From the IMG/VR virus record IMGVR_UViG_3300046524_000102, positions 1 through 44,710 of that record: a stretch of DNA of 44,710 bases. One strand, given 5' to 3'. Position numbers and translations under genes: made by a program. Origin of the DNA: a virus. Each line of letters begins with the position of its first letter. Position 1 is the stretch's first letter. The notes under the pieces were generated by a model. It was not told the origin of the DNA. It searched no databases and saw nothing but the letters and a program-made list of their open reading frames with translations. Positions 4,538-32,631 of the stretch are shown here, in pieces.

Positions 4538-5123
4538 CGGTTACGCTCCGCTTGCTGTCTTAGGATTTCTTCGTTTGCCGAGCGAACGGCGATTGCGTCG
4601 TTAAGAAGCGCCACATCTTCGAGCGCTAGTGTCCCGTCGATCAGGGACTCGTACTTGCATAGACCTTCCATGACCGGTTGAAGAAGCCAGTCTTCCCCAT
4701 CGGGCAGAGAGAGCAGGGCGACGTTCTGCGATTGACTCGCGCTTACGCCGCTGCCGCGCCGAGAAAAAAACCGCCCAGGTTCTCCTGAATCACCTTCACC
4801 GCGAGCTGGATCATCTGGCCCATGTCGATGTCTTCGAACATGAGGCCGCCACGCACCATGACGGCAGCCGGATGACCATTCGACTGGATGCGCTGGCAAA
4901 CGCCGAGGCAAATGTCCAGCACGTAGTCCACGTCCTCGTCCGACATTCCCGAGAGTGCGTCAGTGAGCGGACCCAGAAACGCGGCAAATCCCGCGGTCTT
5001 ATCCGGAACGCCGCTCATGCCGGCCAGCAACGGAGCCAGTCGACGTGCGACGTGGAACTGTTTGCGTGCGTCGATGCGGCCGATCCGATACTTCTGGCCG
5101 CCGACTTCTACGATGTCATTCAT
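4534..5123 (-). CDS. Tail assembly chaperone, frameshifted long form (G-T type fusion, about 196 aa)
   Basis: Joins residues 1-120 of the short chaperone to 76 residues of the -1 frame by slippage at 4764-4770. The downstream part reads SRRGSGVSASQSQNVALLSL and ends LRQQAERNR at 4534. That stop overlaps the tape-measure start by 4 nt, and the T-frame has no good start codon of its own. Long tail phages commonly make such G and GT chaperones to load the tape measure during tube assembly. The gene order tube, chaperone, tape measure fits. The fusion is inferred from frame, slip site and position. Confidence 0.75.
4743..5123 (-). CDS. Tail assembly chaperone, short form
   Basis: A 126-residue protein starting MNDIVEVGGQKYRIGRID with a helical body (FHVARRLAPLLAGMSG, LGPLTDALSGMSDEDVDYV) and ending FFLGAAAA at 4743. 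It is the zero-frame product of the G/GT pair. It lies between the tail tube gene and the tape measure, the normal place for the chaperone that coats the tape measure before tube polymerisation. The last codons before the stop contain the slippery T7 run. Confidence 0.78.
   Translation of the reverse strand: MNDIVEVGGQKYRIGRIDARKQFHVARRLAPLLAGMSGVPDKTAGFAAFLGPLTDALSGMSDEDVDYVLDICLGVCQRIQSNGHPAAVMVRGGLMFEDIDMGQMIQLAVKVIQENLGGFFLGAAAA
4764..4770 (-). other. Programmed -1 frameshift site (U UUU UUU)
   Basis: On the coding (minus) strand the codons GGT TTT TTT CTC contain the heptamer T TTT TTT, which fits the X XXY YYZ slip pattern. A -1 shift after residue 120 continues into an open frame that ends exactly at the tape-measure start overlap. 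Downstream GC-rich sequence (CTCGGCGCGGCAGCGGCG) could act as a stimulator. Not tested experimentally. Confidence 0.75.
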
Positions 5124-5126
5124 GGG

Positions 5127-5570
5127 TTAAACCCCGATACTGAGCGCCGGATCCATCACGCCGATGTCAAAAACCCATTCGATCGTGCCGGCTTCCATCG
5201 CGTAGGTGTTGTTCGGGAACTTCGAAAACGCGACCTGTTGGCAGGAATACTGCTCGCCGCGGACGATGTCCGAGCCAGCCAAGACGTTCTGCGCCCAGTT
5301 GGCCGACGACGTACGCTGAAAGTTGTACATCGCCGAGAGCTTGCCGTTGGTCGGCGAGGTCTTCAGAAGGCGCACCGTGGCGCGGCCGCCTTTGCCGGGG
5401 TTCAGACTGTGCATGGCGGTGCCGTCTGCGCCGATGACCATCGTGTTGGCGTTTTCGACGAATTCGAAGGTGACGCCTTCTTTTGCATCACCAGCGCCGT
5501 CGCCCAACGTGATCGAACCGCCAGGGCCCGTCAGCGTGAGCGCAAAGTCTTGAAAGCTATACGTGCTCAT
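5127..5570 (-). CDS. Tail tube protein (DUF3277-like)
   Basis: A 147-residue protein beginning STYSFQDFALTLTGPGGSI, with KEGVTFEFVENANTMVIGAD and IEWVFDIGVMDPALSIGV near the ends. This is the pattern of the DUF3277 family, the inner tube subunit of myophages with DUF3383 sheaths. It lies 12 nt downstream of the sheath gene and just before the chaperone gene. The inner tube is what the contracting sheath drives through the envelope. Confidence 0.85.
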   Translation of the reverse strand: MSTYSFQDFALTLTGPGGSITLGDGAGDAKEGVTFEFVENANTMVIGADGTAMHSLNPGKGGRATVRLLKTSPTNGKLSAMYNFQRTSSANWAQNVLAGSDIVRGEQYSCQQVAFSKFPNNTYAMEAGTIEWVFDIGVMDPALSIGV

Positions 5571-5582
5571 GTGTTATCTCGC

Positions 5583-7397
5583 TTATTGGTTGACGGTCAC
5601 TGCGAAGTCGATCGTGTGCACTGCGCCCGCCAGCTTCACAGCGATCTGGAACGGCACCGACTTGCGCGCAGCGCGATCGGCCTGGCTCTGCGACGCAACC
5701 GGGGGTTGAAATACGTAGTAGCCCTTCGGCAGGAAGTCGCCCTGGTTCAGCGTGCCAAATCCGCCGCTATTCCAGACGCCCGGAGCAAACAGGCCGTTGT
5801 TGACGTACTGCTGACAGACGCCTTCGATGTCGGTAGCGAGGATGTGCATCCCCGGATCGGTTTGCGGAATCTTTGTCGTGCTGGTGAAGAGGCGATTGAA
5901 CAGCGCCGTCTGCACATCGATACAGAACGCATCCATGCCGACGATCGTGTCGATAAATTCGCCCGATGCAACCTTGGCCGGCTCGATGATCGTCGTACCG
6001 TTGTTGTAGGCGACGAACACATTGCAGTTCTTGCCCTCGAGCGCCGACATCTGTGTGGCGTTGAGCGTTTCAGCCGCGACGCCAGGCTCCTGCTTGTACA
6101 TCAGAGTGATCACCGTATTGTTGCCGGTGTAATCCACCGTCAACTGGCGACCGATAAGCGAATTCACTGCATACGCGCTATTGCTCGAGAACTGCGTGCA
6201 CGTCTTGTTGAAGCCAAGCGCCTGAAGCTGGGATGCGATGTCGGTCGTCGTGACCGAGTTGAGCACGCCCGCTTCCTGCGTGGTGACGCCGTAGAAGTGC
6301 TTGTTGTTCGTCGACTCGATGAACGCTGCGAGCGCGAGGTGATCGGCGTCCGCCGCTTGCGGGACGGTCAGGCCATACCATTGCTGGCCGAACTGGTTAT
6401 CGAACAGCGCAGCGGCTTGAACTGCCGTTTCTGCCGCGACGCCGTTGGCGACAAACGCACCCGACGAGGTCGACGTCATGCCGAGCATGGCAGAAATGTC
6501 CGTACCGCTGCCGCCGCTCAGCGTGGCGCCGGAAGGCGTTGCTACCGATGCAGCCAGCGTGAACGTGTTGCCTGCCGTGCCGGGCGTCTTGTAGACGATC
6601 TGGAGCGCCGTGCCAGCCTGATTGACCGAGTAGGTTGCCTTCGACAGGTTGACGTCCGCCGACTGGTTCAGGAACGTGACGGCGTTGGCCAGCGTCGCGG
6701 CGAGGTTCGCGCCGATCAGGATCTGATTGCCGGTCGTCAGCGCAGAGACGAACGTAACGACCGTGCCGCCGATGGTGATCGTGGCCGCCCCACTCGGGTT
6801 CAGTGCGAAAGTGAGCGAGCCGAACGCAGTCGGGGCCGAGGCGAAGCTGAGCGTCGACGTCGCGCCCGTCGTGCCGTCCGTGATCTGGAATTGTGCGAAG
6901 CTCGAATTCCAGACGCAGGTCGAGCCTGCAACGGCGGCGGCGAGGGCGGTCTGGATCAGCGCAGCGATGCCGTTCAGGTTGACCGACGAACCGAAGCTGG
7001 CCGGCGAGATCGTGAACGGGGAACCGTTGATCGTGATCGAGAAAGCGGGCGCCGTGATAGGCGTGAAATTGCCGATAGCCTGCTGCGCAACCGAAAGCGT
7101 AGCGCCGAACAATTGCGCGTTCGTAGCCGTCTGCGCCCAGCGTCCAATCAGAACGTTGGCCGGCTGCGGCGACTGGCCGAACCACGCCTGAGCGGCGAGG
7201 AATTCAGGCGCCGTCGTGCCGAAGTCCGCGGCGACAGACGTCGAACTGAAGTATTCGCGCATCCGCGACGCAACGTCGATTACAGGCGACGAGCCCAGAA
7301 TCAACTCAGTGTTCAGGTTCTGCGCCTGCGCTGCGTTCGGAGACAGGTTCACGGTCCCCTGAATCAGCCGGGAGATAGGCAGTTGACTCGTCGTCAT
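5583..7397 (-). CDS. Contractile tail sheath protein (DUF3383)
   Basis: A 604-residue sheath subunit. The sequence after the chosen start, MTTSQLPISRLIQGTVNLSP, then FLAAQAWFGQSPQPANVLIGRW, is the DUF3383 N-terminus. The C-terminal half has HFYGVTTQEAGVLN, VTLMYKQEPGVAAE and VWNSGGFGTLNQGDFLPKGYYV. The frame is open 10 codons further upstream, but that extension would run through the terminator at 7410-7437, so the ATG at 7397 is preferred. Contraction of this protein around the tube powers DNA delivery. Confidence 0.92.
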   Translation of the reverse strand: MTTSQLPISRLIQGTVNLSPNAAQAQNLNTELILGSSPVIDVASRMREYFSSTSVAADFGTTAPEFLAAQAWFGQSPQPANVLIGRWAQTATNAQLFGATLSVAQQAIGNFTPITAPAFSITINGSPFTISPASFGSSVNLNGIAALIQTALAAAVAGSTCVWNSSFAQFQITDGTTGATSTLSFASAPTAFGSLTFALNPSGAATITIGGTVVTFVSALTTGNQILIGANLAATLANAVTFLNQSADVNLSKATYSVNQAGTALQIVYKTPGTAGNTFTLAASVATPSGATLSGGSGTDISAMLGMTSTSSGAFVANGVAAETAVQAAALFDNQFGQQWYGLTVPQAADADHLALAAFIESTNNKHFYGVTTQEAGVLNSVTTTDIASQLQALGFNKTCTQFSSNSAYAVNSLIGRQLTVDYTGNNTVITLMYKQEPGVAAETLNATQMSALEGKNCNVFVAYNNGTTIIEPAKVASGEFIDTIVGMDAFCIDVQTALFNRLFTSTTKIPQTDPGMHILATDIEGVCQQYVNNGLFAPGVWNSGGFGTLNQGDFLPKGYYVFQPPVASQSQADRAARKSVPFQIAVKLAGAVHTIDFAVTVNQ

Positions 7398-7409
7398 GAA
7401 GGATTTCCC

Positions 7410-7437
7410 AAAAGAAAAACCCCGCACTCGGCGGGGT
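7410..7437 (-). terminator. Rho-independent terminator between connector genes and sheath gene
   Basis: Read on the minus strand: stem CCCCGC / GCGGGG (7420-7425 with 7431-7436), loop CGAGT, flanked by an extra A-T pair, then TTTTTCTTTT. It lies inside the late operon just upstream of the sheath start. It may be a partial terminator that is passed by antiterminated polymerase. Confidence 0.8.
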
Positions 7438-7458
7438 CAGAATTCGTTGCGTGAGGTG

Positions 7459-10336: not shown

Positions 10337-10430
10337 GCTGTCATCTCCGCAATAGATGATGGAATGGTTAGAGGCCTCAGGGTGTTAGCGCACCTTGGGG
10401 CCTCGCTCATTCTACCGCGGAAATGCAGCC

Positions 10431-11498
10431 TTAAATCGCATCACGATAGGCCAATGTAGTTCCGTACCTAAATTCCACCTGGCCGAAACGCGCCCAATAA
10501 GTGGTGATTTGAAAGAGCGAGCGATACTCGAGCGGCGTGCGTTGCAGTTCCGTCATCGGGTACTGTACGTACTTCTTGCTCTTGTTGTAAGCCACCATGC
10601 GGTCAACCGTGCCAAGCGTACCCGGCGTGCCGCCCACGCCTGCACCGATCAACCACTTCAGCGGCAGGATGTTGAGCTTCTGGCCTTGCTGCGCACAGAT
10701 GTTGTTCTCGATGATGAACGCGAGAATCGTCTTTTGCGCTGCGGTGTTGACCGGTTGGCTTGCGACGAAACCGAGTTGCGCCGGCGGCAGAAGCAGGGTG
10801 TCCGGCAGAACCTTCCATCCCGAAGCTTGCCATGCGCTCGTCAGGATTTCGTTGACGTCCTTCAGGATTTCGAGGGCCGTCTTGGTCGTCCATTGCGGCG
10901 TGCTTGCGGCACCGTTGGCGACGTTCTGGAAGCTGCCGACAGCCGAGTTCGAATTCACGAGGCCCGTAAAGCCCAACGACGCATCGCCGAAGTAGACGAT
11001 GTTGTCGAGGTCCATGTTGCGCTTCAGGTTCATGCCTTCAACCTTCTGCGCGTCGACCGGCTGACCGAGGGCTTGCGCCTTCACCAGTTCAGGCACCGTG
11101 TACTTGACCTCAGCACCCCACAGGCGCATCGGCTGCGGAGTCTTGCCGATGTCCAGCGACGGACCGGCGATCGCGTTGCCTTCGTTCGAAATCCAGTTCA
11201 GGCCGCCGGGGTTGATACCGCCCGACATGGCGAACGCGGAGTTCGTCCACGAAGCGATCTCGTCAGCCGGCGAAACGTCGGTACGAATCTCGATGTCGCG
11301 CGACCAGGTGAATTCGACCAGCGGCTCATTGAGCGTCTGATCCAGACGTTCGAGCTGGCCGACGAGGAACACGCCGGTCGAGTCGACCGTAGCCTTGTCG
11401 TACGTGAATTGCTGGTCAGCCGTGAAGTGGCGGATTGCTTTCCGCGACACTTCAGCGATTTCCCGGCGCTTGAGGAATTTTTGAACAGACATGTCCAT
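10431..11498 (-). CDS. Major capsid protein (DUF2184)
   Basis: A 355-residue capsid protein. Markers are FLKRREIAEVSRKAIRHFTAD at the N-terminus, VYFGDASLGFTGLVN in the middle and GTVDRMVAYNKSKKYVQ, PMTELQRTPLEYRSLFQ near the C-terminus, as in DUF2184 HK97-fold capsid subunits. It lies downstream of the cement gene in the order protease/scaffold, cement, capsid. GGAG about 10 nt upstream of the ATG serves as ribosome binding site. A 95-bp gap then separates it from the HNH gene. Confidence 0.9.
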   Translation of the reverse strand: MDMSVQKFLKRREIAEVSRKAIRHFTADQQFTYDKATVDSTGVFLVGQLERLDQTLNEPLVEFTWSRDIEIRTDVSPADEIASWTNSAFAMSGGINPGGLNWISNEGNAIAGPSLDIGKTPQPMRLWGAEVKYTVPELVKAQALGQPVDAQKVEGMNLKRNMDLDNIVYFGDASLGFTGLVNSNSAVGSFQNVANGAASTPQWTTKTALEILKDVNEILTSAWQASGWKVLPDTLLLPPAQLGFVASQPVNTAAQKTILAFIIENNICAQQGQKLNILPLKWLIGAGVGGTPGTLGTVDRMVAYNKSKKYVQYPMTELQRTPLEYRSLFQITTYWARFGQVEFRYGTTLAYRDAI

Positions 11499-11524
11499 TG
11501 ATTTATTGCTCCAGAAATGCAGAA

Positions 11525-22760: not shown

Positions 22761-23284
22761 TTTCCACCTCGCGCGTCATCAATCGCCTTTCGGCAACTCT
22801 CGAAACTCCCTTCTCCGCACTGGGCGTCATTTAAGTCGATATCGCCAACGTATCCGGCCCACTGGCGGCCCGCAGTCAACCTGACGATGTTCGGGCTCAG
22901 GATCACTTTCCATTGGTAGGTCGTGTCGTAGAACTTATTCAACTGGGTATTCATACAGTCCAGATAGTCCAGTCTCGCCTTATCCTCCCGCAGCGCCCGC
23001 ACCTCATCACCCGACTCAGCCGGAAACGCCCCGCATTCGCTCGCATCGACGGGCAGTAGCGCATCAGTCGAAGCTCTCGACCCAATCTCTCCGTTAGCGG
23101 CATCGCTCAGCGCGTCCAGGAAACGCTCGGGAGCGTTCACAACTCCGGCCATCTGGTAAGTAGCGGCGCAGAGTTCTCGCAACGCCCGCACCTCGGCGAT
23201 AAGGGCGAGCACCGTCGCACCAGATACCGGAGCGCCCGGGATTTTGCTGTCCTTGATTAGCCGCTCGATTTCGTCCAGATCCAT
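22757..23284 (-). CDS. Hypothetical phage protein (175 aa)
   Basis: Starts MDLDEIERLIKDSKIPGAPV, contains a helical segment (TVLALIAEVRALRELCAATY) and a C-terminal motif ARLDYLDCMNTQLNKFYDT followed by WKVILSPNIVRLTAG, a type of tail seen in variable phage early proteins. AAGGAGG precedes the ATG, which overlaps the stop of the 23284-24051 frame by one base (TAATG). Function unknown. Confidence 0.68.
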   Translation of the reverse strand: MDLDEIERLIKDSKIPGAPVSGATVLALIAEVRALRELCAATYQMAGVVNAPERFLDALSDAANGEIGSRASTDALLPVDASECGAFPAESGDEVRALREDKARLDYLDCMNTQLNKFYDTTYQWKVILSPNIVRLTAGRQWAGYVGDIDLNDAQCGEGSFESCRKAIDDARGGK

Positions 23285-24051
23285 TACGCTGCCTCCTTAT
23301 TCGTTTGAGAGTAGGGTGAATGCGAGTCGCACCACTCCTGGAATCTGGCCATTTCCAGAGGCCTTAAGTCTGTCCACGCTGAAGGGAACACCATCAGCCA
23401 ATCCTGGAAGTCCGCATTCACTGTGCGCCCCGAGACTACTTGGCCGCCATGATTGAGGCTTAACCAGGCGAGGTAATCCTCTATCTGACTGCGATGATCT
23501 CCGCTCTTTGCGCGCTTCCAGCAGATTCCGTGCGTTCCGACGCTCGCCCTTGGGGTAGGCAAGTATCCAGACTCGTTCTCGACGCTGGGCGGCTCCAATG
23601 TGGTGACCTCCCAGCACTCCCCATCGTGCATCGAGCCCCATCGCGGCCAAGTCACCGAGCACTGTTCCGATGTATCCAGAAACAATGAGGCCTGTGACGT
23701 TTTCCAACAGGACGAATCGCGGTCGAACACGGCGAATGACATCTGCCGTTGCGGGCCACATGTTGCGCTCGTCCGCTTCGCCGAGTTGCTTTCCTCCGAG
23801 TGAAAACGGCTGGCAGGGAAAGCCTGCTGTAACCACGTCCGCAATTCCTCGGTACTGGTCGGCTGCACCGGACTGTGCGAACTGACGCACGTCAGTAAAT
23901 ATTGGGGCGTCTGGCAAGATTCCATCCTTGATGCGTGCGGCGATGACTCGCTGGCAGTAGTCGTTCCACTCGACGTAACCCACAGGGCGCCATCCGAGTA
24001 GATGGGTTCCAAGCAATCCGCCTCCAGCGCCTGTGAAAAGTGACAACTCAT
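23284..24051 (-). CDS. Overprinted ORF on the C5 methyltransferase gene
   Basis: A 255-residue frame, +1 relative to the methyltransferase and coincident with it for 750 bp. Segments RTWLQQAFPASRFHSEES, SSCWKTSQASLF (113-124), TWPRWGSMHDGE (134-145), GYLPTPRAS (162-170) and DWLMVFPSAWTDL (217-229) recall a phage protein family typically reading CSWKTSQ ... TWPRSG ... LPTP ... GFPxGWTDL. Its ATG has GGAGG 8 nt upstream, and its stop overlaps the next gene's ATG (TAATG). Function unknown, possibly tied to the methylase. It could instead be a chance open frame that has entered databases. Confidence 0.55.
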   Translation of the reverse strand: MSCHFSQALEADCLEPIYSDGALWVTSSGTTTASESSPHASRMESCQTPQYLLTCVSSHSPVQPTSTEELRTWLQQAFPASRFHSEESNSAKRTSATCGPQRQMSFAVFDRDSSCWKTSQASLFLDTSEQCSVTWPRWGSMHDGECWEVTTLEPPSVENESGYLPTPRASVGTHGICWKRAKSGDHRSQIEDYLAWLSLNHGGQVVSGRTVNADFQDWLMVFPSAWTDLRPLEMARFQEWCDSHSPYSQTNKEAA

Positions 24052-24055
24052 TCAA
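23297..24055 (-). CDS. DNA (cytosine-5) methyltransferase
   Basis: A 252-residue enzyme that methylates C5 of cytosine using SAM. Motif I FTGAGGG (7-13), EWND (29-32), motif IV GFPCQPFS with catalytic Cys81, motif VI ENV (118-120), motif VIII QRRERVWI (157-164) and motif X ASGNGQIPGVV (232-242) are all present in order. The target recognition region is short (about 65 residues), so the protein is compact. Start is TTG, overlapping the upstream stop as TTGA, with GGAGG 4 nt before. Likely protects phage DNA from host restriction. Confidence 0.9.
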   Translation of the reverse strand: MNELSLFTGAGGGLLGTHLLGWRPVGYVEWNDYCQRVIAARIKDGILPDAPIFTDVRQFAQSGAADQYRGIADVVTAGFPCQPFSLGGKQLGEADERNMWPATADVIRRVRPRFVLLENVTGLIVSGYIGTVLGDLAAMGLDARWGVLGGHHIGAAQRRERVWILAYPKGERRNARNLLEARKERRSSQSDRGLPRLVKPQSWRPSSLGAHSECGLPGLADGVPFSVDRLKASGNGQIPGVVRLAFTLLSNE

Positions 24056-24519
24056 GAGACCTCCAATTCTTGTTGTTCAACCAATCCCATTTTCCGGGCC
24101 CGCAACGGAACCCACCGAGCGAATCCTCTATCGAATGCCGCGAACTTCTCCGCTCGCGGTGCCGGACCCTGATCAAGCCATTGGTGACAAACGAAGCAGC
24201 CCGGCAGCGTTCTTTCGTGACTGGCCTTCAGGCCCATGCCCTTTCCAGCGCTCAGGCGGTTGTCGTGACAGGGAACTACCCTCGGGTCAGCCCAATCCGA
24301 TGCATCACAAAGCACGTTGAGAAAGCACGGCTCCCCGCGGCAAGCCGCCAGATACTTCGATCCCTCGGCGACGGTCGGCCGCTTCGGCTTACTCTTTAGC
24401 GATGACCGCTTGGGGTTGGCCCGCAACTCGGCGCGCCAGTCCTTTGACTCGACAGGTGACGACTTCCACGGCTTGCGTTCCAACGAGCTTTTACGGGGTC
24501 CAAAACCTGTTCTTTTCAT
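24052..24519 (-). CDS. YbcO-like nuclease (DUF1364)
   Basis: A 155-residue protein. After a basic N-terminus (KRTGFGPRKSSLERKPWK) comes the DUF1364 core: CRGEPCFLNVLC, VVPCHDNRLSAGKGMGLKAS and GCFVCHQWLDQG, with conserved Cys and His residues likely to hold a metal. Family members are phage recombination-region nucleases such as YbcO. Start at the Met before KRT is chosen because its ATG overlaps the preceding stop (ATGA) and GGAGG lies upstream. Confidence 0.82.
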   Translation of the reverse strand: MKRTGFGPRKSSLERKPWKSSPVESKDWRAELRANPKRSSLKSKPKRPTVAEGSKYLAACRGEPCFLNVLCDASDWADPRVVPCHDNRLSAGKGMGLKASHERTLPGCFVCHQWLDQGPAPRAEKFAAFDRGFARWVPLRARKMGLVEQQELEVS

Positions 24520-25551: not shown

Positions 25552-25771
25552 ACTCAACCCCCATTTCCCGCAGCCAATTTTTTGCCCTCGACGCAAACTC
25601 CCTGGCGGCTTCTTCGCGCCCAACCTGCCGAGCCTCGTTCAGAAGCTGGGCCACTGCGTGGTACTGGGTAAATTCAGCGAACGGGATATCGCGCTTGATC
25701 GTGCCGACTTCGAATGTAGCGATGCCGCTGCGGTCGGTTTCGTTGCCTTTGAATTCGGATTTGAATGTCAC
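25535..25771 (-). CDS. Hypothetical protein (78 aa)
   Basis: MTFKSEFKGNETDRSGIATF, then TQYHAVAQLLNEARQVGREE and a C-terminus WLREMGVEYVNHT. Small, mostly helical after a short beta start. Overlaps the kinase gene by 4 nt. Function unknown. Confidence 0.6.
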   Translation of the reverse strand: MTFKSEFKGNETDRSGIATFEVGTIKRDIPFAEFTQYHAVAQLLNEARQVGREEAAREFASRAKNWLREMGVEYVNHT

Positions 25772-26337
25772 GCTGCCTCCGCATTCAACTCTGCCCGCAG
25801 CGCATCAAACACCTTCAGATGCAGGGCGCAAACGTCGCCATCGTTGACCAGTTCGCGCATGGAGTCGTAGTGAGCGACCAGCGCGCCTTCGCTGCGATGG
25901 GTCGGGATGGACGAGCCAGAGTGATCGGGGCGGGTGATGTGCCAGGCGATTCCACTCATTGCTTGCACCGAGGCGTATTCGTTGGGGAAGCGGCAATCGT
26001 CGACGACGACCCGGCCACCGTGCCACAGAACACCGGCAACTTGGTCGCGCCAGAGACCGGCCCAGAAGTCGTCGCCAATCAAGTCGCGACCCCATTCCGT
26101 GCCCAAGGTGACCATCGCGTGACGAGGCGTCTTGCCGCACAGCAGATCGCAAGGCACTTCCTTGCGTGAGCCTTCGATCTCTTCGTCATCGAGTCCAATC
26201 GCGCGCAGCATGGTCTTCAGCGGGCCGGCGAACTTGACTAGCTTGTAGTTGTGGACTTCCTGAAGGTATTCAGCCACGGTCGACTTGCCGGCGCCAGCGT
26301 TGCCCACCAGGGCGATGATTTGCGGAAGGTCTTTCAT
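25768..26337 (-). CDS. Deoxynucleoside monophosphate kinase-like P-loop protein
   Basis: A 189-residue protein with Walker A GNAGAGKST (12-20), then VKFAGPLKTMLRAIGLD, and a downstream VVVDDCRFPNEYASV segment typical of phage dNMP kinases (lid and DxxF/RFxNE-type motif). It would phosphorylate dNMPs for phage DNA synthesis, perhaps including modified ones. The start at MKDLPQ has GGAGGAAGC upstream and overlaps the previous stop by 4 nt. Confidence 0.85.
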   Translation of the reverse strand: MKDLPQIIALVGNAGAGKSTVAEYLQEVHNYKLVKFAGPLKTMLRAIGLDDEEIEGSRKEVPCDLLCGKTPRHAMVTLGTEWGRDLIGDDFWAGLWRDQVAGVLWHGGRVVVDDCRFPNEYASVQAMSGIAWHITRPDHSGSSIPTHRSEGALVAHYDSMRELVNDGDVCALHLKVFDALRAELNAEAA

Positions 26338-26645
26338 GCTTCCTCCGGAATAAGATCGGCCAGGTGGTAAATCTCCAGTCCCAGCTTGTCGGCAGCCAGG
26401 CGCTCGATCTTGGCGCCAAACGAATTCGTCCAGCCCGGCAACAAACAGATTGCCGTGCAGCCGTCCATCGCCTTCAAATCGGCGGCAATGCAATCGAGCC
26501 ACTTGGCTTCGGGGTCGGGGTTGATCTCGACCGGGTTGACCACCTCCCATCGTTGATTGCGCAGCCGCACAGCTGTCCGGTTGAATAACGGGAAGTTGAG
26601 TCGGTCGATTCCGCTCATGGGCCCGCTGATGTAGATGCGCTTCAC
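26334..26645 (-). CDS. DUF4406 nucleotide-processing protein
   Basis: A 103-residue protein beginning (GTG) VKRIYISGPMSGIDRLNFPL, with VVNPVEINPDPEAKW, CTAICLLPGWTNSFGAKIE and ADKLGLEIYHL. This is the DUF4406 pattern, a Rossmann-like family related to nucleoside 2-deoxyribosyltransferases. It suggests nucleotide salvage or modification. The GTG overlaps the upstream stop (GTGA) and follows GGAGGAAAC. Confidence 0.82.
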   Translation of the reverse strand: MKRIYISGPMSGIDRLNFPLFNRTAVRLRNQRWEVVNPVEINPDPEAKWLDCIAADLKAMDGCTAICLLPGWTNSFGAKIERLAADKLGLEIYHLADLIPEEA

Positions 26646-26824
26646 TCTGTTTCCTCCTTCTCTTCCTTCGTAGTAGTGTGGGCGAGAGCGCGACGCTGGG
26701 CGTCCTGCAAGATGCGGGCGAACTTGTCGACGGAACAGAACACGCCGGCGTCTGCCATGATGTCGACCATTTCGCGGTGGGTCATGCCGGTAACGAGCTG
26801 GGTTGGGGCGAGTAGGGTGGTCAT
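26642..26824 (-). CDS. Small protein (60 aa)
   Basis: MTTLLAPTQLVTGMTHREMV, DIMADAGVFCSVDKFARIL and a charged tail TTTKEEKEETE. Possibly a small helical regulator. Coupled to both neighbours by 4-nt overlaps; AGGAG precedes the ATG. No family recognised. Confidence 0.6.
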   Translation of the reverse strand: MTTLLAPTQLVTGMTHREMVDIMADAGVFCSVDKFARILQDAQRRALAHTTTKEEKEETE

Positions 26825-27576
26825 GCTGCAATCTCCTGTTCGGCGATCTCGCAAAAGAAGCTGCACGCGGGCAGCGGCTCGTCGTGACGGCCAGCTAGCG
26901 GATCGAGCTGGCGCAGGCTGAAGCGCTCGTTGGTATCGCGATCGCGGAACAGGTATGCGCTGGGCCCGATGGCTTCCTCGATCACGGCGATCTCCTCAAA
27001 TCGCTGAGGGAAGTCGCGGCGGATCTTGTTCCAATAGCCCAAGCCACCTTTGACGCAGCCAATACAGTTGGCGTTGTCGTAGCCAAGCCGATACATGGCC
27101 GGCATTTCGATCCCGGCGCGCTCCAGCATGCCGAGGCAATCGCCCTTAGTCAGACCTCGGTCGATAAGCGGCACCATCAGGTCGATCCCGTTGTTTCGGT
27201 CTATGAAGTCGTCGTAGCGGTTCTGTTCCTCGACGGTGTAGCCCAGCACCATTGCGTCGTCTGGCTGACGGAACGAGTCCAGCAGATCGCGCTTCAGTTG
27301 CTTCGAGCATGGCGCACCGCGCTGGCCCTTCAGGTAACGCTTGCGTCGGAACACTTCGAGCGTCGATGCGCCGTATTTCTCGTCGCGTAGCACGGTTATC
27401 TCGCGCCCGAACCACTTCTCGCAGTCGGCCAGAAAGCGCCGATTATCTTCGTGCTCTTCCTGAATGAACGCGTTGACGATCAGGATCTCGCGCGTCGCGC
27501 CGAACTCGGCGAGGATCAGCTTTGTAGCGACCGCTGATGCTGCGCCACAGGAAAACTGGCAAACGATGCGATTCAT
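26821..27576 (-). CDS. PP-loop (PAPS reductase-like) protein
   Basis: A 251-residue protein. The PP-loop near the N-terminus reads QFSCGAASAVATKLI (degenerate SGGxxS), then GAPCSKQLKRDLLDSF, and a Cys pair in NCIGCVKGGLGYWNKIR. These are features of phage phosphoadenosine-phosphosulfate-reductase-family proteins, which adenylate substrates or transfer sulfur. The substrate is unknown; in phages they are sometimes tied to DNA or tRNA modification. It lies with dNMP kinase and DUF4406 genes. Confidence 0.85.
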   Translation of the reverse strand: MNRIVCQFSCGAASAVATKLILAEFGATREILIVNAFIQEEHEDNRRFLADCEKWFGREITVLRDEKYGASTLEVFRRKRYLKGQRGAPCSKQLKRDLLDSFRQPDDAMVLGYTVEEQNRYDDFIDRNNGIDLMVPLIDRGLTKGDCLGMLERAGIEMPAMYRLGYDNANCIGCVKGGLGYWNKIRRDFPQRFEEIAVIEEAIGPSAYLFRDRDTNERFSLRQLDPLAGRHDEPLPACSFFCEIAEQEIAA

Positions 27577-30261: not shown

Positions 30262-31795
30262 TTTTCTTCCCCCTCGCTGCGCGGAATGCAATGTCCATTT
30301 GCTTGATCTTGTTGATCGTGTTGCGCTCAACCTTCACATCGGGAGCGGTGCTCACCTTCCAATCCTTGGGCGGTTCCGTATTGGTGATTGCCTTATACAG
30401 GTGCCATGCTCGACCCTGCTGCTTGTCAGGGTGACTGTGCTCGCGCGCGTAGGATGAGAGCTGTTCCCACAGATGGCGCCTGTCGTCGGCCAGTTTCTTC
30501 TTGCCGAGCATGACTTCGACCATCTCACCGGGCTTCGTCTCGACCAGGGATTGCGTTTTGGTCTCGAAGCCGCAAGCCATGCAGCGACGACCGAACGGCT
30601 TGTACCCACATGAGGGGCACGCAACGATTTCTTTCTCTTCTTCGTCTCTGCGGATCTGCTTGTCGAGCTTCTCTCCAAGATCCAGCGCATCCAAGCCGTT
30701 GAAATAGATATCGGTGTAGTCGTCCAGGAAGCGGATGATGTTGCCGCTATGGTCCAGCAGCAGACAGTCCGTCTTGCCAGTTGCGGGGGATGCGCGCAGA
30801 CCTCGTCCCCACATCTGAATTGCCGTGCTCAAAGACTTGCGTAGCGGACGGCAATCGACCACACAGGACACATCCTTGACGTCAAATCCCTTGGCCAGTG
30901 CCTCGACGCTTATCAATACGCGGATGGCTGAATCCGGCTTGCGATATTCCTCAAGTAGCACCTTGCGCTCTGCGGGCGACGTGCGCGAAGTGAACACGGC
31001 GGACATGACGCCGAACTCGGAAAACTGCCTGCAGATTTCCTCGCAGTGGGCGATGGTTGAGCCGAAAACGATCGTCTTGCGGTTCTCGCCAAACTTGATC
31101 CATTCCGTTACCACATCACCGACGATATCCATTCCTCGTTCGGCTGCGGCTTCGTCAGTCCATTCGCCGCCCGCCGTTGCTGCGCCATTCATGTCCGTCT
31201 TCGTGCAGCTAAAGACGCGCATCGGCACCAACTCACCCGCAAGGGTGATTTCGTTCATGGTTGTGGCGTTGATGAGATTGGAGAACAGCTTCCCCAGTCC
31301 CTTCGAAAATGGCGTGGCCGACAAGCCTACGGCTCTGGCAGGGCTGCTCTGGATATGGTCGACCCACGTCGAAAGCTGCGTGTGCGCCTCATCAACGACG
31401 ATCAGGTTTGCGCGAGGCCATTGACGGCGAGCTAGTGTCTGTGCGCTCGCGATCTGGAACGGCATGTCGTTCTGCCGCCAGTGATCGGCCTGAATCACGC
31501 CGTGATGAATCAGCCCAAAAGCGTCGGCTTGCTGGCTGGTCTGATCAATCAGTGTGGTACGGTCACAAACGAAAACTGCACGCTTACCATTTTGCAGCGC
31601 TCTAGAGATGATCTTCAAACCGAGATAGGTCTTGCCAGCGCCAGTGGGCGCCATGATCATCTGGTTCTTGTGGCCGGCCACCCATCCGTCGCGAAGACGA
31701 TCTTGGGCAACCGTCTGAAAATTCCGCTCGGGCGGAAAGCTCAGCGTCTCATAGTTCGGCTCAAGGTCGAACAGATAGGGTGCGTCGACTATCAC
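30254..31795 (-). CDS. DEAD/DEAH-box SF2 helicase
   Basis: A 513-residue helicase. Motifs: Walker A APTGAGKT (49-56), DEAH (135-138), SATP (159-162), and C-terminal ISVEALAKGFDVKDVSCVV and QMWGRGLRAS. A zinc ribbon follows (CPSCGYKPFGRRCMACG). It is like phage UvsW/RadD-type helicases that remodel replication or recombination forks. Adjacent to primase and ParB-like genes with 8- and 4-nt overlaps. Confidence 0.9.
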   Translation of the reverse strand: MIVDAPYLFDLEPNYETLSFPPERNFQTVAQDRLRDGWVAGHKNQMIMAPTGAGKTYLGLKIISRALQNGKRAVFVCDRTTLIDQTSQQADAFGLIHHGVIQADHWRQNDMPFQIASAQTLARRQWPRANLIVVDEAHTQLSTWVDHIQSSPARAVGLSATPFSKGLGKLFSNLINATTMNEITLAGELVPMRVFSCTKTDMNGAATAGGEWTDEAAAERGMDIVGDVVTEWIKFGENRKTIVFGSTIAHCEEICRQFSEFGVMSAVFTSRTSPAERKVLLEEYRKPDSAIRVLISVEALAKGFDVKDVSCVVDCRPLRKSLSTAIQMWGRGLRASPATGKTDCLLLDHSGNIIRFLDDYTDIYFNGLDALDLGEKLDKQIRRDEEEKEIVACPSCGYKPFGRRCMACGFETKTQSLVETKPGEMVEVMLGKKKLADDRRHLWEQLSSYAREHSHPDKQQGRAWHLYKAITNTEPPKDWKVSTAPDVKVERNTINKIKQMDIAFRAARGKKNG

Positions 31796-32631
31796 GCAGC
31801 CTCCTTCTCAAGTTTCGCCAATTTCTTCTGCAAGCTCTTGACCATACGGATTGCCTCGTTCTTGGCATTCATATGGCTATCGCGTGCCTCTTTGAGAGTT
31901 CGGACTTCAGCCTTCAGACAGCCGATTTCTTCCGCCTGCTGCGCGACCAGTTTCAGCGCTTCGCCCAGTTTGTCGTCAGAGAAGGCGACTTCAACCAATG
32001 CGTCATACGCTTCGCGATCCGATTTCTCCTTCTCTTCTAGGAACGCCATTTCTTCTGCGCTCGGACCGAAGTCGTCGGCGTCGCTTCCGTTTTCCGATAC
32101 AGTAGGTTCCGGATCGGGTGCTTTGGGGGAGATCTGCTCCACGGCTTTGGGGAGGCTAACTTCGCCATGTGCAACCTTCTTAGCGAGTTCTGGACTTGCC
32201 TTCGCAACCTTGTCGGCCATCTTCTGAGTGCGAACGCTTGCCCCAGACTGAGCGGCGCGGTCAGCTGCAGTGGTTAAGGGTGCAACGTTGCACTCTTTAG
32301 AGGGGCGATAGGCGGGCTGTGCCTTCGCCCAGTCCTGAGCGCTCGCCACAATCGCAGCCTGCTGGCCAGGAGAGAGATGCCGGCGATGCAGGTTGGCCGA
32401 CAGAACGTATGAAACGATGTTGTCGCCATCGAATTCAACAGTGCGAGGCTCAACTTCAACATCGACACATGCGCGATAGCGATTACCACCATCCAAGATC
32501 ATGCCCTTATGAACAACAATCGGTTGGCGCAAACCATTGGCTGCGATATCCGATTTAAGAGCCTCAAATTCCGCGCCGGCCATCCTCGGAAACAGAGTAC
32601 AGAGCGGGTGCAACTGCAATTCAGTATTCAA
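31792..32631 (-). CDS. ParB-like nuclease/CTPase domain protein
   Basis: A 279-residue protein (TTG start, GAAGGGG upstream). N-terminal ParB domain: FEALKSDIAANGLRQPIVVH, LDGGNRYRAC (46-55) and NIVSYVLSANLHRRHLSPGQ; a central helix-turn-helix-like part (KVAHGEVSLPKAVEQI) and an acidic coiled-coil C-terminus follow. It may act in segregation of an extrachromosomal prophage, in gene regulation, or with DNA modification. Identical 14-bp palindromes lie inside and just upstream of it. Confidence 0.85.
   Translation of the reverse strand: MNTELQLHPLCTLFPRMAGAEFEALKSDIAANGLRQPIVVHKGMILDGGNRYRACVDVEVEPRTVEFDGDNIVSYVLSANLHRRHLSPGQQAAIVASAQDWAKAQPAYRPSKECNVAPLTTAADRAAQSGASVRTQKMADKVAKASPELAKKVAHGEVSLPKAVEQISPKAPDPEPTVSENGSDADDFGPSAEEMAFLEEKEKSDREAYDALVEVAFSDDKLGEALKLVAQQAEEIGCLKAEVRTLKEARDSHMNAKNEAIRMVKSLQKKLAKLEKEAA
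32280..32293. repeat. Perfect palindrome inside the parB-like gene (site 1)
   Basis: GTGCAACGTTGCAC, followed by TCTT. It repeats exactly at 32846-32859 with the same four flanking bases. Candidate ParB (parS-like) or regulator binding site. Confidence 0.55.

Follow-up and report, generated by a model that had tools for sequence, protein, structure and literature searches.

Two open reading frames on one strand of a phage genome

The window, that is, the whole stretch of DNA analyzed here, is a 44,710-base IMG/VR virus record of a tailed phage, carrying portal, terminase, major head, tape-measure, helicase, and RecE-like genes; no match to near relatives of this phage was found in 50,697 records. 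Two long open reading frames (ORFs), referred to as alpha and beta, were located on the same strand with an overlap of 98% of their length (about 770 bases), the start of beta being 4 nt and the stop 13 nt downstream of those of alpha (Table 1). The neighbors are an HNH ORF upstream, of which the TGA overlaps the TTG of alpha, and an ORF of no family downstream, and the TAA of beta overlaps the next ATG as TAATG. No restriction enzyme was recognized next to alpha and beta in the window. The peptide words SSCWKTSQ, TWPRWGSM, GYLPTP, and WLMVFPSAWTDL are present in beta. These features had been pointed out in an initial annotation of the window, and the two overprinted ORFs, their offsets, the quoted words, and the junctions (TTGA, GGAGG at 8 nt, and TAATG) were all found in place. 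The GC content at the third codon position was 54.5% for alpha and 67.6% for beta over the whole gene, and in a 23-codon stretch around PCQPF, the earlier count for beta (17/23) was reproduced, but that for alpha (13/23) came to 12/23 upon recount. The length of ORF alone is unconvincing because the window includes antisense ORFs of 368 and 614 codons, in agreement with the caveat given in the annotation that long chance ORFs are common. The 368-codon antisense ORF illustrates that, at this GC content, long ORFs can be empty.

Table 1. Positions of the alpha and beta frames, their signals and motifs, and other ORFs of the window
Feature	Position	Strand	Remarks
Alpha	23297..24055	(-)	TTG start, 252 aa
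Beta	23284..24051	(-)	+1 frame relative to alpha; ATG start, 255 aa
Ribosome-binding site GGAGG	24060..24064	(-)	8 nt before beta ATG, 4 nt before alpha TTG; from sequence
Staggered double start TTGAATG	24049..24055	(-)	Alpha TTG 24055-24053, beta ATG 24051-24049
Alpha motif IV GFPCQ (catalytic cysteine)	23810..23824	(-)	G78-C81 invariant in 63 alphas
Alpha motif X GNGQIP	23339..23356	(-)	At residue 234; G234, N235, and Q237 invariant in 63 alphas
Beta residues 96-155, conserved block (FAVFDRDSSCWKTSQ...TWPRWGSMHDGECWE)	23587..23766	(-)	Over alpha motifs VI-VIII; conservation well above synonymous-shuffle null
Beta variable region from LPTP on, presumed target-recognition part	23419..23568	(-)	Over disordered linker of alpha
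Beta residues 212-229, motif IX-like NADFQDWLMVFPSAWTDL	23365..23418	(-)	Near-invariant residues, four-fold sites
860-codon ORF	4872-7454	(+)	No PHROG match
614-codon ORF	5583-7427		Antisense to the ORF at 4872-7454
368-codon ORF	10431-11498	(-)	Antisense to major head protein gene, 10395-11501 (+)
Phosphoadenosine phosphosulfate reductase-like gene	26821-27576	(-)	phrog_424, 5e-45
dNMP kinase	25768-26550		Near the phosphoadenosine phosphosulfate reductase-like gene
ParB-like protein	31792-32631		Near the phosphoadenosine phosphosulfate reductase-like gene

Alpha was identified as a cytosine-C5 methyltransferase by PF00145 (1e-30 over profile positions 2-181 of 324) and by phrog_363 (5e-55). 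The profile match corresponds to residues 15-176 of HhaI, ending at motif VIII, and residues 1-172 of alpha were aligned to a profile of single-chain enzymes with an E value of 6e-31. The motif set of alpha consists of motifs I-VIII and X, including the PCQ catalytic cysteine and ENV, and residues G78-C81, E118-N119, R159, and R161 were invariant in 63 alphas. The AlphaFold model of alpha (pLDDT 78) forms the catalytic fold, with the last helix at 239-251 and disorder at residues 192-236, and its best PDB matches were DNMT1, M.HhaI, and M.HaeIII. In these single-chain C5 enzymes, of which the catalytic domain is matched by alpha, the recognition domain and motif IX are carried in the same chain. 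Unlike them, alpha gave neither a motif IX nor a target-recognition region, the profile match stopping at motif VIII, and between motifs VIII and X there is hardly room for a recognition domain. Alpha is not of the single-chain type, its own chain being devoid of both elements, and the earlier description of a full methyltransferase with all the motifs has to be withdrawn.

Beta showed matches to phrog_1008 (6.8e-21, labelled DNA methyltransferase) and phrog_26627 (4.4e-8), and among 80 beta homologues, 79 and 80 matched these two families, respectively. The search against phage databases, as proposed in the annotation, assigned both chains. The library of these families records a protein family, but not its overlap with another methyltransferase gene. 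Beta gave no family in Pfam and nothing significant among solved structures. When modeled alone by AlphaFold, it gave a pLDDT of 60 and a pTM of 0.27, and Foldseek found no known fold for this poor model. Poor folding of beta alone is what a partner-dependent subunit might show, but proves nothing.

Near-invariant residues in the 80 betas (W218, M220, P223, and W226) lie in a C-terminal segment with the family form LNPxWVEWLMGWPxGWTDLKPL. This segment resembles motif IX, and it lies in DNA just upstream of motif X, the expected place of motif IX. Upon comparison of beta with the profile of single-chain enzymes, only this segment was aligned, as the best match, with an E value of 0.45, which is not significant. 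In two loci from Rickettsiales (L172 and L239), the same words (LNPDWVEWLMGYPISWT) are found in the own chain of alpha directly before motif X, and these words are better evidence for the putative motif IX of beta than the profile match. The assignment of this segment to motif IX is based on the position, the near-invariant residues, and these two loci.

The variable region of beta can hold many modules resembling (W/F/L)PTPxAsD, as in L161:2514-4139 and also in L005, L171, and L224. The 541-aa beta of L161 has about seven such modules, and the overlapping linker of alpha is unconserved. The repeats are perhaps tandem recognition modules, by analogy with multispecific phage methylases.

Coding constraint in the two frames

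All of the 80 loci retrieved with alpha patterns only had beta open in the +1 frame, and in all of the 80 loci retrieved with beta from bacterial and archaeal genomes, alpha was found over beta. When the synonymous codons of alpha were permuted in the window, a mean of 6.4 stops appeared in the beta frame and none of 300 permutations left it open, as compared with no stop in the real beta. For a total of 115 distinct nested pairs, beta stops were 0 against a mean expectation of 5.2, with P<0.05 in 112 pairs. The similarity in the beta frame exceeded the alpha-synonymous null in 98-100% of pairs and was well above that in the +2 control frame. This excess peaked at alpha codons 109-144 and 205-240 (1.3 to 4.3 BLOSUM units per codon) and was small over codons 13-60 (0.05 to 0.39 units per codon). 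The controls for coding tests were the +2 and antisense frames and 18 ordinary single-chain C5 methyltransferases from the same genomes, none of which had an open beta frame. Shadow matches were observed in the single-chain L254, L258, and L259, reaching up to 20 bits for beta residues 54-127 in ORFs of 62-95 codons, as compared with about 50 to 360 bits for real betas.

Divergence at each codon position was analyzed for 71 independent close pairs. The divergence at alpha four-fold sites was 43-45% at codons 81-100, 10-14% at codons 111-140, and 2% at codons 211-220, the last being the stretch where beta carries the WLMGWPxGWT motif. Over codons 61-96, alpha third positions changed at 34.7 per 100 codons against 9.5 for first positions; over codons 205-230 the order was reversed (10.1 for third and 19.1 for first positions), and residue changes were 13.7% in beta and 21.2% in alpha. 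The constraint shifts from alpha to beta along the gene. The comparison of the window with its nearest relative, L009, gave the same kind of pattern: at codons 1-60, 23 of the 30 differences fell on the alpha third position, leading to three residue changes in alpha and 24 in beta; at codons 161-205, all eight differences fell on alpha position 1, the wobble position of beta, leading to six changes in alpha and none in beta. Judging from these sequences, the first 60 or so codons of beta look weakly constrained. Because of the little selection detected there, the dual constraint covers about three quarters of the gene and the exact start of beta is uncertain.

Motif partition and distribution of the family

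Two scans with beta as the query yielded 160 loci, in all of which beta overlapped an alpha in the same frame relation, and no beta homologue among them was located away from a methyltransferase gene. Within the initial interpretation, the near-complete overprinting of two conserved coding sequences is upheld, but neither the completeness of the methylase nor the assignment of beta to a separate family is.

The classification of motif positions, in which copies of one contig fetched twice count twice, gave 241 records with motif X in alpha and motif IX in beta. Both motifs are in beta in L097, L098, L224, and L226, and also in L265 (same genome as L226) and, by eye, in L161 and L007. In L172 and L239, motif IX is in alpha and beta has only the recognition part. 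Among the classified records, no intact locus lacked either motif IX or X. Exceptions to the rule of one motif set had an in-frame stop or a frame slip (L067, L199, L200, L216, L150, and L088), and one more, L162, is at a contig end. Some copies are probably broken because four records have an in-frame alpha stop with beta left open (TGA in L067 and L216, TAA in L199, and TAG in L200). In L150 and L088, the frame slips exchange tails between the two frames. In L169:810-1571 on the chromosome of E. coli strain PCP07014, two stops 4 nt apart (TTTGAATAGG) interrupt each of the frames, and the gene is marked as a pseudogene by RefSeq.

On a tree of the alpha catalytic region, for which the outside group was small, the overlapping enzymes formed one side of a branch (97/98), apart from the single-chain enzymes. 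The type with motif IX in alpha is one clade, having changed once, and at least three changes of the label for motif X in beta are forced by starred branches. The members of the clade were found in Pseudomonadota, Bacillota, Actinomycetota, Planctomycetota, Verrucomicrobiota, Spirochaetota, Nitrospirota, Parcubacteria, and one archaeal bin. As genes for integrases, portal proteins, helicases, and further phage functions occur in the flanks, many of these members are probably prophages or binned phages; the matches listed for 95 proteins flanking the genome loci were phage genes and other methylases. We lean toward the view that this clade is an old and widespread class of phage methyltransferases, in which the recognition subunit is overprinted on its own catalytic domain, dual-frame selection extends over about three quarters of the gene, and motifs IX and X have switched frames more than once.

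A probable two-subunit methyltransferase and its alternatives

Selection acts on both frames, each of which holds part of the motifs, and beta is always coupled to alpha. The locus very probably encodes a two-subunit cytosine-C5 methyltransferase resembling M.EcoHK31I, with alpha as the catalytic subunit and beta as the subunit for recognition and motif IX, produced from staggered starts. One enzyme in two parts is the simplest reading because there is a single motif set, beta never occurs without alpha, and the motifs swap chains without loss. Alpha would bind S-adenosylmethionine and hold the catalytic cysteine within motifs I-VIII as well as motif X, and beta, translated in the +1 frame of the same mRNA, would give the target-recognition region and motif IX. 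With the latter two elements on beta, neither chain alone would be a complete enzyme. We infer from the sequences that both proteins are made, form a complex, and methylate DNA. A solitary phage methylase usually serves for protection against host restriction, and by analogy the enzyme may shield the phage DNA in the same way. As to the origin, it is plausible that the frame of a single-chain ancestor changed after motif VIII and that the new frame was later extended upstream over the catalytic domain; the conserved beta block lying over motifs VI-VIII would, on this view, be overprinted sequence.

Ribosomes would begin both chains 4 nt apart behind one ribosome-binding site, of which the spacing appears best for the beta ATG, the alpha TTG being nearer and weaker. 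Among 139 distinct NNN-AATGA-[GA] junctions (NEL in alpha), ATG, GTG, or TTG occupied the place of the alpha start in 123; in the remaining 16, alpha has an in-frame upstream ATG or GTG, and the fourth codon is TTG in 12 of them. The ribosome-binding core was located 7-9 nt before the beta ATG in 81 of the 98 junctions having a core, and therefore 3-5 nt before the alpha start. This spacing suggests that initiation of beta is at least as good as that of alpha. In many distant viral loci, the DNA of alpha codons 2-9 (AATGAGTTGGCTCTTTTCGCAGGC) is the same almost to the letter, perhaps due to dual coding at both N termini and maybe also to a signal for translation initiation.

We regard as unlikely, though not negligible, a variant of the two-subunit enzyme in which beta starts internally, for example at the ATG at 23925, leaving its first 40-60 codons or so untranslated. 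The 24 beta changes against three in alpha between the window and L009 at codons 1-60, the pLDDT of about 50 for beta residues 1-60 in the AlphaFold model, and the betas of L001, L002, and L006, which are open only from inside alpha, all fit an internal start. The ATG at 24051, however, is preceded by GGAGG at the spacing preferred in the family, the N terminus MSWLFSQAL is kept in many relatives, and the internal ATG is without a good ribosome-binding site in the sequence.

It is improbable that beta is a real protein overprinted by chance and engaged in a job unrelated to methylation, such as that of a regulator or an inhibitor. The lack of a Pfam family and of a known fold for the model is in line with such a protein, but the strict association with alpha in the 160 loci, the presence in beta of the motif that alpha lacks, and the trading of motifs IX and X between chains in relatives all argue against it. 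Programmed ribosomal frameshifting from the alpha to the beta frame after motif VIII, yielding a single polypeptide, is highly improbable. The +1 frame indeed continues the enzyme downstream of motif VIII, and one shift would give a complete chain in L097, L098, L224, and L226, which have motifs IX and X in the beta frame; in most loci, however, a second, reverse shift would be required to reach motif X, and beta starts from a conserved ATG of its own with a well-spaced ribosome-binding site. Frameshifting is rejected because beta is conserved over alpha motifs VI-VIII (codons 97-156), where the beta frame would never be read in such a fusion.

That beta is an untranslated shadow, conserved as a by-product of methyltransferase codons, is scarcely credible: the location of all beta homologues over methyltransferase genes, which the initial annotation had named as one sign of a shadow, was indeed found, together with the weak matches in the three single-chain enzymes and the shadow-like behavior of the first 60 or so codons of beta, but the stops and the purifying selection in the methylase frame only that it had named beside it were not, both frames being under purifying selection, and a chance or shadow ORF is ruled out by stop-freeness beyond the synonymous null, by similarity above the same null, and by the divergence at alpha four-fold sites, with the controls, the refutation applying to codons about 97-230, where codons 205-230 are beta-dominant, alpha four-fold sites are least divergent, and motif X itself comes into the beta frame in several relatives.

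The two-subunit reading has precedents among known enzymes. M.EaeI is of the same kind as M.EcoHK31I (E. coli, YGGCCR), the small polypeptide of which was reportedly described by Lee, Kam, and Shaw in 1995 as being encoded inside the gene of the large one in another frame. In M.EcoHK31I, which is made up of two polypeptides, motifs I-VIII and X reside on the large one together with the predicted recognition domain, and motif IX resides on the small one; in M.AquI, the variable region is divided between the chains (PMC3404938). As compared by the described layout, the same partition of motifs over two chains is found in the window. However, M.EcoHK31I is one restriction-modification system, and here a solitary phage gene has almost coextensive frames (98%); in addition, alpha offers hardly any space for a recognition domain, and the variable region is on beta. 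M.AquI (CYCGRG), a two-polypeptide C5 enzyme split between motifs VIII and IX, shares its partition with L097, L098, L224, and L226, but differs from the window, where motif X is on alpha. In the open-licence papers, no overlapping methyltransferase genes were found beyond M.EcoHK31I and M.AquI. The split enzyme itself is known, but the extent of the arrangement, the selection for dual coding, and the frame-swapped variants appear undescribed in this literature.

Long overlaps on the same strand are commonly taken for artefacts, and gene callers retain only one frame. In seven of the eight deposited phage records inspected, only one frame is annotated. In five (L002-L006), only alpha is called, and in two, Stenotrophomonas phage SOVA965 and Pseudomonas phage phPA-G (L001:1696-2196 and L008:1186-1914), only the non-catalytic beta; the catalytic alpha is missing from both of the latter records, one of which names beta a DNA-cytosine methyltransferase. 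An enzyme of this kind, when cloned as annotated, would probably show no activity because one frame is missing. The overlap described here is real, is common to hundreds of phage and prophage loci, and joins what are very probably two parts of one enzyme, and the variants in which motif IX or X has switched frames make up a natural series on dividing an enzyme between frames. If the view of an old and widespread phage class holds, few nested gene pairs of prokaryotes and their viruses would be as widespread as alpha and beta, and most annotations would lack one subunit.
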